NCBI GenBank assembly: GCA_009843635.1
Contig: VYDB01000017.1
Coordinates: 1 to 39,874, forward strand
Origin: Gammaproteobacteria bacterium
Lineage (GTDB): Bacteria > Pseudomonadota > Gammaproteobacteria > Pseudomonadales > Azotimanducaceae
DNA length: 39,874 nucleotides
Reading direction: 5' to 3'
Shown here one piece after another: positions 10,801-31,949 of the stretch. How positions within the stretch are numbered: the stretch's first letter is position 1; each line of letters starts with the position of its first letter. The notes beneath the pieces were generated by a model, which was not told the DNA's origin, made no database searches, and saw only the letters and a program-made list of their open reading frames with translations. Both the position numbers and the translations under genes were made by a program.

Positions 10801-11690
10801 ATTCCCAAGCCGCTGATGAAGAGTATGCCGGCGTCAGCGCAGTTGATCCGGGGCTCTCGGCCAAGCTGACGTTTGATCCACAGTCGGTTGAGGCACCTGC
10901 CTTCACCGTCGGCCAGCCGCGTCCGCGCATTGCCGTGCTTCGGGAACAGGGTGTTAACGGGCAACTGGAAATGGCGGCAGCCTTCGACCGCGCCGGGTTT
11001 GCCGCCGTGGATGTCCACATGACGGATCTCATTTCCGGGGCGGTGTCCCTGCTCGACTTCCCCGTGCTGGCCGCATGCGGCGGTTTTTCCTACGGCGACG
11101 TGCTAGGTGGCGGTGGCGGCTGGGCGAAGAGCATCCTGTATCACGAAGCGGTGCGCGACGCCTTCGAGGCCTTCTTTATGGCGGACCGCTTGGCGCTTGG
11201 CGTCTGCAACGGCTGCCAGATGATGGCCCATCTCAAGGCGTTGATTCCGGGCGCGGATTCTTGGCCACGGTTCGTGCGCAACCGTTCAGAGCAGTTCGAG
11301 GGACGCAACGTGCTGGTGCGCATCAACCCCAGCGCATCGCCTTGGCTGGCCGACATGGCGGGCAGCGTCCTGCCGGTGCCGGTCGCCCACGGCGAAGGCC
11401 GTGCAGAATTCGACGAACCGGGCGACCTTGGGCAACTCACCTCATCAGGCTTGGTCGCGGCGCAATACGTGGACACCCACCATCAAGTGTCCGAAGCCTA
11501 CCCAGCCAACCCCAACGGTTCGGAGGACGGCTTGGCGGGCGTCACGGCGGCGGATGGGCGGGTGCTGATCCTGATGCCGCATCCGGAACGCGTGTTCCGC
11601 ACCGTTCAGAACGCTTGGTCGGACCCGTCTTGGGGCGAGGACGGCCCTTGGCTGCGATTGTTCCGCAACGCGAGGCGGGTGGTGAGCTAG
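7830..11690 (+). CDS. purL: Phosphoribosylformylglycinamidine synthase (PurL)
   Basis: Large single-chain PurL of 1286 residues (E. coli 1295), converting FGAR, glutamine and ATP to FGAM in purine synthesis. In order: the PurS-like N-terminal domain, a linker, and two AIR-synthase-like ATP-binding halves, the first with [20 protein letters not shown]. The C-terminal class I glutaminase has [11 protein letters not shown], the nucleophile in GVCNGCQMM, and a PHPERVFR triad region. ATG 7830 follows GGGAG (7818-7822) at 7 nt and fits the family start. It lies 28 nt after the ATPase gene. Confidence 0.98.
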
Positions 11691-11720
11691 ACACCGCTAA
11701 AGTCCCGCCCAAATTCCCCC

Positions 11721-11749
11721 TTGACAACCCCGTCCCGCATCGGGATAGT
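11721..11749 (+). promoter_or_regulatory. Sigma70-like promoter of the leuA leader and leuA
   Basis: A perfect -35 TTGACA (11721-11726), a 17-bp spacer and GATAGT (11744-11749, 4/6 to TATAAT). The predicted start near 11756 lies within a base or two of the leader-peptide GTG at 11757, so the leader would be translated from an almost leaderless mRNA. The promoter follows the purL stop by 30 bp and makes leuA independent of purL. Confidence 0.72.
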
Positions 11750-11756
11750 GCGCCGC

Positions 11757-11846
11757 GTGAACAAGATCCTCTTCCAAGACCCTTCCTTGCGTCCGCAAGA
11801 CCTGCGCCTGCAAGGCCTGCACTTGCGCCTCCTGCTGCCGGCGTAG
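11757..11846 (+). CDS. Leucine-rich leader peptide of leuA (LeuL-like)
   Basis: A 29-codon frame (GTG to TAG) between the promoter and leuA with 9 leucines (31%), including three in a row at residues 25-27 just before the end. The leucines use CTC, CTG and TTG. This composition, position and size match the leader peptides that control leucine biosynthesis by ribosome stalling; the sequence is not otherwise recognisable. It would start at or next to the predicted transcription start, so translation would need leaderless initiation at GTG, or the real start lies slightly upstream. The function as a leucine sensor is inferred. Confidence 0.68.
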   Translation: MNKILFQDPSLRPQDLRLQGLHLRLLLPA

Positions 11847-11914
11847 CCGGCACACTCACCTCCAAAAAGGGCAACTGCCCGCCTTAACCCAAAGCCCCGA
11901 TCCATCCGCAGGAG
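11829..11914 (+). promoter_or_regulatory. Candidate translational attenuator of leuA
   Basis: CTCCTGC (11829-11835), the last leucine codons of the leader, is perfectly complementary over 7 nt to GCAGGAG (11908-11914), the Shine-Dalgarno region of leuA. Between them are a perfect 7-bp hairpin, TGCCGGC/GCCGGCA (11836-11842 and 11846-11852) with the leader stop codon in its loop, and a short GGGC-AACT-GCCC stem (11869-11880). No U-tract follows, so no intrinsic terminator is evident. Model (inference): with leucine plentiful, the leader ribosome leaves and the Shine-Dalgarno is hidden; stalling at the leucine codons masks CTCCTGC and frees it. Confidence 0.55.
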
Positions 11915-11922
11915 TCTTGGCC

Positions 11923-13644
11923 ATGAGCGAGTCTGCCGCAGCCAGCGAGCCGCAATCATCTTCCCATCAACCGCGCAGCCGTGCCGGCGGCGCGATGCCG
12001 TTCCACAAGTACCGCCCGTTTGCGCCCATCGACCTGCCCGGCCGGCAATGGCCGGGCCGGACCCTTGAACGCGCGCCGCGCTGGTGCAGCGTGGATCTGC
12101 GGGACGGCAACCAGGCCTTGATCGATCCCATGAACGTGCAGGAAAAGCTGCGCATGTTCGACCTGTTGCTCGAGGTCGGCTTTGCGGAAATCGAGGTTGG
12201 CTTCCCGGCGGCGTCGCAGCCGGACTTCGACTTCATTCGCCGCATCATCGACGAAGGCCGCATTCCCGATGGCGTCGCCATTCAAGTGCTGTGTCAAGCG
12301 CGTGAGGAGCTCATTGAGCGAACCGTGGAAGCATTGGCCGGCGCGCCCGAGGTCATTTTCCATCTGTACAACTCCACTTCGGAGTTGCAGCGGCGGGTAG
12401 TGTTCGGGATGGACCGCCAAGGCATCATCGACCTCGCGGTGAAGGGCGTCTCCTTGGTCAAGGCGGGTCTTGCGGCCCTGGATTCCGACATCACCTTCGA
12501 ATACTCGCCGGAGAGCTTCACGGGCACGGAACTCGACTTCGCCGTGGACATCTGCACCGCCGTGGCGGAACAGTGGGGCGCGACGGTCGAGAAGCCGATG
12601 ATCGTCAATCTCCCGTCCACCGTGGAAATGGCCACGCCAAATGTCTATGCCGACCAGATCGAGTGGTTCGCCAGCCGCTTCCCGCACCGCGACAAGGCGG
12701 TGGTCAGCCTGCACACCCACAATGACCGGGGCACCGGCATCGCCGCCACCGAATTGGCGCTGCTGGCGGGCGCCGAGCGGGTTGAGGGCACCCTGTTCGG
12801 GAACGGCGAGCGCACCGGCAACTGCGACATCGTCACCATGGCGATGAACCTCTTCAGCCAAGGCGTGGACCCGGAATTGGACTTCCGCAACATGCCTCGC
12901 ATCCGCCAAACCGTGGAGGCCATCAACAAGCTGCCCGTGCACGAACGCCACCCCTACGCAGGCGACTTGGTGTTCACGGCCTTCTCGGGCTCCCACCAGG
13001 ACGCCATCAAGAAGGGCATGGCGCAGGTCGATCCGGACCATTGGGAAGTGCCCTACCTGCCCATCGACCCCGGCGACGTGGGTTCGTCCTACAAGGAAAC
13101 CGTGCGCGTCAACAGCCAGTCGGGCAAGGGCGGCGTCGGCTTCCTGCTCGAGGAGTTCTACGGCATCATTCTGCCCCGGGAGATGCTCAAGGAGTTCAGC
13201 GGCGTCGTCCAAAAGCTGACCGAGACCCTCGACCGGGAAATCAAGGCCCAGGAAATCCACCAGGCACTGCTTGATGAGTACGCCGTGGAGGGCGGTCCCT
13301 ACCGGCTGGTTGACTTTGACGTGCTGACTGGACACCGCGCCGAGCAACGGTGCGTCGCCCGCATCGAGGCGTCCGAGCAGTTGGTCACCATCGACGGCGA
13401 GGGCGGCGGCCCCATCGAAGCCTTCGTTCATGGCCTCGAGGAGACCTTCAACGAGCCCGTCAACATCGTCGAATACCACGAGCATGCGCTGACCACGGGC
13501 AGTGACGCCCAGGCCATCTGCCTGCTCGCCATCGAGGATGCCGATGGCGGGCGGTGCTATGGCGTGGGCGTCAGCCGCAACACCATCACGGCTTCCTTCA
13601 ACGGGGTTATTGCCGCGTTGAACCGCCGTTGGCGCGCGACCTGA
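11923..13644 (+). CDS. leuA: 2-isopropylmalate synthase, type 2 (LeuA)
   Basis: LeuA condenses acetyl-CoA and 2-oxoisovalerate, the first committed step to leucine. The 573-residue protein is of the long LeuA2 type found in Pseudomonas and actinobacteria: a catalytic TIM barrel (DLRDGNQAL near residue 60; HTHNDRGTGIAATELALLAG; GNGERTGN), linker domains with SGSHQDAIKKG, and a C-terminal regulatory domain ending in NTITASFNGVIAALNRRW, where leucine feedback acts in the family. The ATG at 11923 follows GGAG (11911-11914) by 8 nt; an in-frame TTG two codons earlier is less likely. No leuB, leuC or leuD adjoins it. Confidence 0.97.
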   Translation: MSESAAASEPQSSSHQPRSRAGGAMPFHKYRPFAPIDLPGRQWPGRTLERAPRWCSVDLRDGNQALIDPMNVQEKLRMFDLLLEVGFAEIEVGFPAASQPDFDFIRRIIDEGRIPDGVAIQVLCQAREELIERTVEALAGAPEVIFHLYNSTSELQRRVVFGMDRQGIIDLAVKGVSLVKAGLAALDSDITFEYSPESFTGTELDFAVDICTAVAEQWGATVEKPMIVNLPSTVEMATPNVYADQIEWFASRFPHRDKAVVSLHTHNDRGTGIAATELALLAGAERVEGTLFGNGERTGNCDIVTMAMNLFSQGVDPELDFRNMPRIRQTVEAINKLPVHERHPYAGDLVFTAFSGSHQDAIKKGMAQVDPDHWEVPYLPIDPGDVGSSYKETVRVNSQSGKGGVGFLLEEFYGIILPREMLKEFSGVVQKLTETLDREIKAQEIHQALLDEYAVEGGPYRLVDFDVLTGHRAEQRCVARIEASEQLVTIDGEGGGPIEAFVHGLEETFNEPVNIVEYHEHALTTGSDAQAICLLAIEDADGGRCYGVGVSRNTITASFNGVIAALNRRWRAT

Positions 13645-31873: not shown

Positions 31874-31949
31874 TGGTGGGTCGTCTGGGGCTCGAACCCA
31901 GGACCAACGGGTTAAAAGCCCGGTGCTCTACCAACTGAGCTAACGACCC
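31874..31949 (-). tRNA. tRNA-Lys (anticodon UUU)
   Basis: A 76-nt cloverleaf including an encoded CCA end. The acceptor arms are GGGTCGT and ACGACCC with discriminator A. The D arm is GCTC-AGTTGGTA-GAGC, the anticodon loop CTTTTAA (anticodon TTT), and the T arm CTGGG-TTCGAGC-CCCAG. The anticodon stem CCGGG/CCCGT has a C-U mismatch at its outermost pair (27-43). Most of the rest matches the E. coli lysine tRNA. It decodes AAA and AAG. Confidence 0.97.

Follow-up and report, generated by a model that had tools for sequence, protein, structure and literature searches.

Results

The leuA locus

The window, by which we mean the whole analyzed stretch of 39,874 nucleotides, carries leuA with purL upstream and, downstream, ffh and a minus-strand frame; the minus-strand frame had no NCBIfam match. 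The leuA gene starts with the ATG at 11923, and in a profile search its product scored 717.8 bits against TIGR00970 (cut-off 697.4). The region leading to the gene contains the following features, all on the plus strand:

11721 to 11749, plus strand: promoter, TTGACA-17-GATAGT (scan of 11600-12000; similar promoters occur in the family)
11757 to 11846, plus strand: leader open reading frame of 29 codons, 9 of them for leucine, with a GTG start and a TAG stop, predicted to be nearly leaderless
11829 to 11835, plus strand: CTCCTGC, leucine codons complementary to the leuA Shine-Dalgarno (SD) sequence, a genus-level feature at most
11836 to 11852, plus strand: hairpin I, TGCCGGC-GTA-GCCGGCA, over the last leucine, proline, alanine and stop codons, conserved and with compensatory changes
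11853 to 11868, plus strand: G-free linker between hairpins I and II, C/A-rich here and U-rich in many relatives
11869 to 11880, plus strand: hairpin II, GGGC-AACT-GCCC, kept with compensatory changes
11881 to 11907, plus strand: C-rich, G-poor leader segment (composition of 11854-11913)
11908 to 11914, plus strand: leuA SD, GCAGGAG
11923 to 13644, plus strand: leuA, 2-isopropylmalate synthase of the yeast-like class (TIGR00970 above cut-off)

The initial annotation of this DNA had described the promoter, the 29-codon frame with nine leucine codons and the 7-nt complement between leucine codons and SD, and had reported that a U-tract terminator is missing; each of these descriptions held. The promoter (TTGACA at 11721-11726, a 17-nt spacer, GATAGT at 11744-11749) is the single promoter-like site in 11600-12000, where 50 shuffles gave a mean of 0.0. 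The frame runs from the GTG at 11757 to the TAG at 11844-11846, and its product ends in LLLPA*. No plus-strand terminator-like site was found in a scan of 11600-12000; the sole match of that scan lies on the minus strand at 11883-11870 (0.4 expected). Absent from the initial annotation was hairpin I, a perfect 7-bp stem adjoining the leucine codons; the stop codon falls within its loop and the first base of its 3' arm.

At the Rfam gathering score, neither the leader of the window nor the leaders of 10 relatives matched any family, which sets aside an identity such as Leu_leader, presumably the Rfam name of the classical leu leader. The only match of the window at that score is a tRNA gene (31877-31949, minus strand). 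When the whole genome was searched for further copies of the element, only leuA (E 1.8e-12) and a leuA remnant (E 6.3e-6) stood out, the next match being at E 0.02. A decayed second copy lies at G000:C104:21429-21695 on the minus strand (loci L111 and L189). It has a promoter-like TTGGCA-17-TACAAT, the leader MNAPSRHQRPSLPKLLLLPA* and hairpin I, directly followed by sequence that matches leuA codons 346-400 and contains a stop codon; the leuA start is missing there.

The leader frame in the family

A LeuA match was obtained in all 58 close relatives and in 197 of 206 genomes of the family. We took 104 family loci (28 from close relatives, 16 + 60 from the family list), and the upstream region was readable in 103. 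Hairpin I was present in the window's form in 82 of these (group A), 14 formed group B, and our script left 7 unassigned, although visual inspection reveals hairpin I in two of the latter, L124 and L133. The leuA start could be assigned in 81 of the 82 group-A leaders (L155 is the exception), and group A gave 79 distinct leaders that are free of N and have an assigned start. The window's genus is represented by nine genomes (L001-L009, with L001 the window's own leader). Loci L031-L054 overlap in part with the genomes of L001-L030 and were left uncounted. The titles of close named records include Pseudomonadales, marine gamma proteobacterium HTCC2089 and K189A clade, among others.

Group B (L028, L030, L171, L172, L177 and L179-L187) is defined by the exact string TGCCGTTGTAGGCGGC. 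In many of its leaders we noticed by eye leucine codons such as CCTACGAC that are able to pair with GTTGTAGG, and a TGTAGG able to pair with a downstream CCTACA or CCTGCA. These pairings possibly constitute a classical three-strand switch.

In the 79 group-A leaders, the leucine share of the seven 3'-most codons is 100%, 68%, 86%, 53%, 43%, 53% and 42%, the value of 100% at the last codon being given by construction because the frame was anchored on that CTG. The two other frames have 6% and 2% leucine over codons -1 to -7. None of the 79 leaders has an in-frame stop in the 13 codons upstream, and all of them have a stop 6-33 nt past the last leucine codon. In 54 leaders this stop falls within hairpin I, at a distance of 6 or 9 nt, and in 25 it is farther downstream. 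A promoter and an in-frame start were paired by script in 64 leaders, and the 15 without such a pair include L015, whose frame the script missed. Of these 64 leaders, 29 have the start 6-8 nt past the -10 box and 35 have it 9-42 nt past the box; some of the 35 may be miscalled (for instance, L007 was given +17 despite an ATG at +8). Judged by this comparison, the leader frame is real and far from chance because it is conserved across the family. The recurring promoters, starts and leucine-rich frames also support the earlier proposal of a leucine-rich, nearly leaderless leader frame of leuA.

Two hairpins and the RNA after them

Hairpin II follows hairpin I at a nearly fixed distance of about 16 nt, and the two covary. 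Over 78 sequences and 11 pairs, 93.1% of the alignment cells are paired (90.6% in shuffles; 22.8-45.7% in slid controls), and 6 pairs changed on both sides as opposed to 1.5 in shuffles, with none of 500 shuffles reaching 6. These counts are lowered by MAFFT having misplaced hairpin II in some alignment rows. Sequence comparison establishes the frame, the promoter and the hairpins, with their conservation and covariation. No recurrent alternative (antiterminator) helix was noticed in the folds that we inspected.

The RNA past hairpin I has an unusual composition. Its first 13 nt are free of G in 44 of the 79 leaders (background 0.0076), and its first 8 nt hold a family mean of 3.28 T (background 1.61) and a single T in the window. 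Segment 11854-11913 contains 25 C and 10 G, and only 0.84% of 15926 segments of 60 nt, taken from both strands of the window, are as biased or more. In the 39 of 79 loci long enough for a local control, the median share of segments at least as biased is 0.0088, with 28 leaders at <=0.05 and 11 outside the top 5%. Such a bias is typical of Rho-loading RNA, and C-rich, G-poor RNA downstream of the leader stop, as expected of a Rho-dependent leader attenuator, is what we find here; the bias is not proof of Rho action. Hairpin I and the leuA start are separated by anything from 66 to 283 nt in the family, but by a constant 69-76 nt within the genus.

Pairing between leucine codons and the leuA SD

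CTCCTGC (11829-11835) is perfectly complementary to GCAGGAG (11908-11914) over 7 nt, and the initial annotation proposed on this ground that the leucine codons mask the leuA SD. As it had suggested, we folded the region. Both minimum-energy folds, one of 11790-11945 and one of 11757-11945, do contain the SD pairing, but they are at most mildly more stable than those of shuffles (z-scores of -0.65 and -1.62), and the SD is no better sequestered than in shuffled sequence: 52% of 25 shuffles of the sequence upstream of the window's SD sequester it as much. Across 76 leaders the SD was unpaired at 0.355 (0.382 in shuffles; p 0.08, not significant). The energy of the window's leader-SD duplex is equalled or bettered with 9.3% of foreign SDs and, likewise, with 9.3% of foreign leaders. 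Its longest perfect match of 7 nt is reached by 0 of 72 foreign SDs, whereas among 72 foreign leaders 16 reach it. We therefore do not regard the 7-nt pairing as clearly beyond chance.

At homologous positions in L001-L009, 7, 7, 7, 5, 6, 5, 6, 1 and 4 of the 7 pairs can form, the SDs of L008 and L009 having been placed by distance. Only 3 of the 9 therefore have the full helix, namely the window and its two nearest companions in that series. The initial annotation had named covariation of this helix as a check; we found no compensating change among the nine genus members, and the departures are mismatches or, twice, G-T. Pairing of the SD with the leader exceeds 0.5 in the ensemble in 5 of the 9 genus members (L001, L002, L003, L007 and L009) and in 20 of 71 other leaders. 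In L009 the SD is sequestered through different pairs.

Outside the genus, the duplex of a leader with its own SD did not stand out from those with foreign SDs (71 leaders, median percentile 0.47, KS p 0.27), nor did it when the genus was included (79 leaders, median 0.44, KS p 0.057). A contiguous match of 7 nt occurred in 2 of 72 leaders outside the genus and in 2.6% of mismatched combinations. Leaders of the bacterial-type leuA described below had a slightly better duplex with their own SD than with foreign ones (16 leaders, median 0.33, KS p 0.013), these leaders being very alike among themselves. The initial annotation had tied its proposal to the conservation of frame and pairing in relatives: the frame is conserved, and the pairing is not. 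On the duplex, match, sequestration and homologous-pair tests we reject SD masking as a conserved mechanism at the level of the family, since the helix decays within the genus without compensation and is at chance level in the family. In the window's genus the pairing may be an added translational layer or incidental.

The same anatomy in other families

We ran a covariance model of hairpins I and II with their flanks at E 0.01 on 369 genomes of the class and 244 of the order, and obtained matches in 35 and 29 genomes, respectively, family members included. Most matches outside the family look like chance. For 32 of them the loci were read, and 7 lie shortly before a leuA of the bacterial type. 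The LeuA class was confirmed by profile (TIGR00973) for L193 and assigned by the motif F-[DE]-T-T-[LM]-R-D-G-E-Q for the others. The pattern CTGCGACTGCN{0,12}GGCAG matched 79 of the 369 genomes; alone it is not specific because a reversed-pattern control also matches many. We read 29 pattern loci. Twelve precede a bacterial-type leuA, and in each of the twelve CTGCC/GGCAG arms flank a stop codon that is in frame; the other 17 do not precede such a gene, and one of these (L240) also has the arms. Both searches together yielded 17 genomes from 14 other gammaproteobacterial families, two loci being common to both.

In these bacterial-type leuA leaders, hairpin I is present, most of the 16 that were folded have a second hairpin further on, and the gene starts 86-166 nt downstream. 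Leucine-rich frames precede this class of leuA also, and 15 of the 17 peptides, as read from the printed sequences, have Leu-Pro right before the stop. A combined alignment of the leaders of both leuA classes misaligned the groups to each other and was left unused.

Six leuA loci with Alphaproteobacteria titles or class assignment (L056, L064, L069, L072, L097 and L099) have leucine codons, then CGACT(T/A), which reads CGACTT in L056, L069 and L097, and a GC-rich hairpin before leuA. By eye, a stop codon lies in the hairpin loop in some of them.

Discussion

Relation to known leaders

The enterobacterial leucine operon has a leader with classical transcription attenuation. Classical attenuation is also described for the leader of the leucine operon of Shewanella (PMC2659441). 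Like these leaders, the element described here has a short leucine-rich leader peptide, with clustered leucine codons, upstream of leuA, and ribosome stalling is the presumed sensor. The known leaders have a terminator and a competing antiterminator. Here the scan of 11600-12000 gave no intrinsic terminator with a U tract, and no conserved competing antiterminator was noticed in the folds inspected, so the classical two-structure switch appears to be missing. Instead, the leader stop is located within hairpin I or directly downstream of it, and hairpin II comes next at a nearly fixed distance. In TnaC and other Rho-linked leaders, a ribosome near the leader stop controls factor-dependent termination in a C-rich leader. 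The presumed position of the leader ribosome near the stop and the C-rich leader are similar here, whereas an arrest peptide or Rho dependence would be hypothetical.

In the LEU element of Actinobacteria, leucine codons pair with the leuA SD (PMC1262725). It resembles our element in having a leucine-rich leader frame before leuA, leucine codons complementary to the leuA SD and no classical terminator. There, the alignment of the element includes the SD stem together with a pseudoknot (PMC1262725), whereas here the SD pairing is limited to part of one genus (the full helix in 3 of 9 members and no family-wide signal) and two hairpins are conserved instead. The leuA leader of Streptomyces lividans is leaderless and without a typical terminator (PMC8079986). 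The trp leader of Sinorhizobium meliloti, a known leaderless attenuator (PMC10117765), is a proteobacterial example of a leader peptide whose coding sequence begins right at the transcript's 5' end, as predicted here; it differs in responding to tryptophan and in having a small-RNA product. According to PMC4833913, Lopatovskaya 2010 treats attenuation by covering of the ribosome-binding site. High-GC bacteria are reported to have amino-acid leaders that lack a U-tract terminator and have no settled mechanism (PMC1262725, PMC8079986). Amino-acid leader attenuation of the classical kind and SD-linked leuA leaders in Actinobacteria are thus already known from these sources. Among titles and abstract openings we found no description of the gammaproteobacterial element. 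New would be a two-hairpin, terminator-less leader type with no Rfam match in the sequences tried, and it may have been predicted earlier (Vitreschak 2004, Lopatovskaya 2010).

A proposed mechanism and its alternatives

Judging from the conserved sequence, the leader upstream of leuA is very probably a leucine sensor. We think it reasonably probable that it is a leuL-type leucine leader-peptide attenuator of leuA, widespread in gammaproteobacterial families and most likely acting on transcription. A leader-peptide attenuator is the best reading because two distant classes of leuA are preceded by a conserved frame in whose final part leucine codons cluster. The transcript would start at or beside the leader start codon, and a ribosome would translate a short frame, rich in leucine over its last ~7 codons, with the stop in or just past hairpin I. 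The position of the ribosome would report the supply of leucyl-tRNA and set whether hairpin I forms. The output would most likely concern RNA polymerase while it transcribes the G-poor, C-rich leader, through elongation or termination and with or without Rho; the leuA ribosome-binding site is not the likely target. We infer the leaderless start, the response to leucine, the role of hairpin I as the switch and transcription as the output. An effect on transcription elongation is favored because the leaders have in common a hairpin that a ribosome could affect, the G-poor RNA, hairpin II and the C-rich RNA, while the spacing to the gene varies. The variable hairpin-to-start distance (66-283 nt), the G-depleted linker, the C-over-G bias and the missing family-wide SD masking all speak for this output. 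Against this reading count the apparent lack of a two-structure switch, the 11 of 39 leaders outside the top 5% in C-over-G bias, the SD pairing in the window's minimum-energy folds and in the ensembles of several leaders, and the slightly better own duplex of the bacterial-type leuA leaders. The polarity could take either of two forms: a stalled ribosome opens hairpin I, or a finishing ribosome does.

The second form leads to an alternative that we regard as quite unlikely, a tandem-hairpin RNA in which a ribosome completing the leader peptide melts hairpin I, so that the terminating ribosome is the repressor. The leucine run starts ~5-7 codons before hairpin I, and a ribosome stalled there would leave the hairpin intact; with the stop inside hairpin I, a finishing ribosome would open it. 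Leu-Pro before a stop codon should slow release. When leucine is scarce, the two hairpins would affect RNA polymerase or protect the C-rich leader against Rho. This would be an attenuator without a terminator/antiterminator pair, common to two distant leuA classes across Gammaproteobacteria. The masking of the leuA SD by CTCCTGC, relieved when a leucine-starved ribosome covers these codons, is also unlikely. It draws on the 7-nt perfect complement beside a conserved hairpin and its place in minimum-energy folds, on 5-7 of 7 homologous pairs in 7 of the 9 genus members with a constant hairpin-to-start spacing, on L009 hiding its SD by other pairs, on the weak duplex signal with bacterial-type leuA and on the actinobacterial precedent (PMC1262725). 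However, the helix has no compensatory change, the signal vanishes outside the genus, sequestration does not significantly exceed that of shuffles, and CTC/CTG leucine codons and AGGAG-type SDs are complementary by nature. In an experiment that PMC1262725 cites for the actinobacterial system (its reference 22), mutated leucine codons were without effect on regulation.

Hairpin I could instead be a weak intrinsic terminator that a ribosome on the adjacent leucine codons occludes, letting RNA polymerase pass, which we consider rather unlikely. In pyrBI, a ribosome occludes a terminator hairpin and lets RNA polymerase through. The GC-rich 7-bp stem, the leucine run adjoining it and the T-enriched 8 nt after the stem in the family are consistent with such a role, but in the window those 8 nt hold one T, in 5 of 17 leaders of bacterial-type leuA they hold none, and the scan of 11600-12000 was without a plus-strand terminator. 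A ribosome at the stop would also occlude the hairpin, so the leucine-rich and leucine-poor states would not be cleanly separated. On the T counts and the terminator scan, a terminator with a U tract is weak at best. That the leader is a translated upstream frame with no leucine regulation, for example one that boosts initiation on a leaderless transcript, is highly improbable, given that ahead of two distant leuA classes a conserved frame is enriched in leucine over its final seven codons.

With the attenuator as our preferred reading, a guess of SD masking from a single genome gives way to a defined RNA element whose hairpins covary and which is open to experiment and modelling. As the element is common to two distant leuA classes and its stop lies inside a hairpin, the target of such leaders becomes directly testable.
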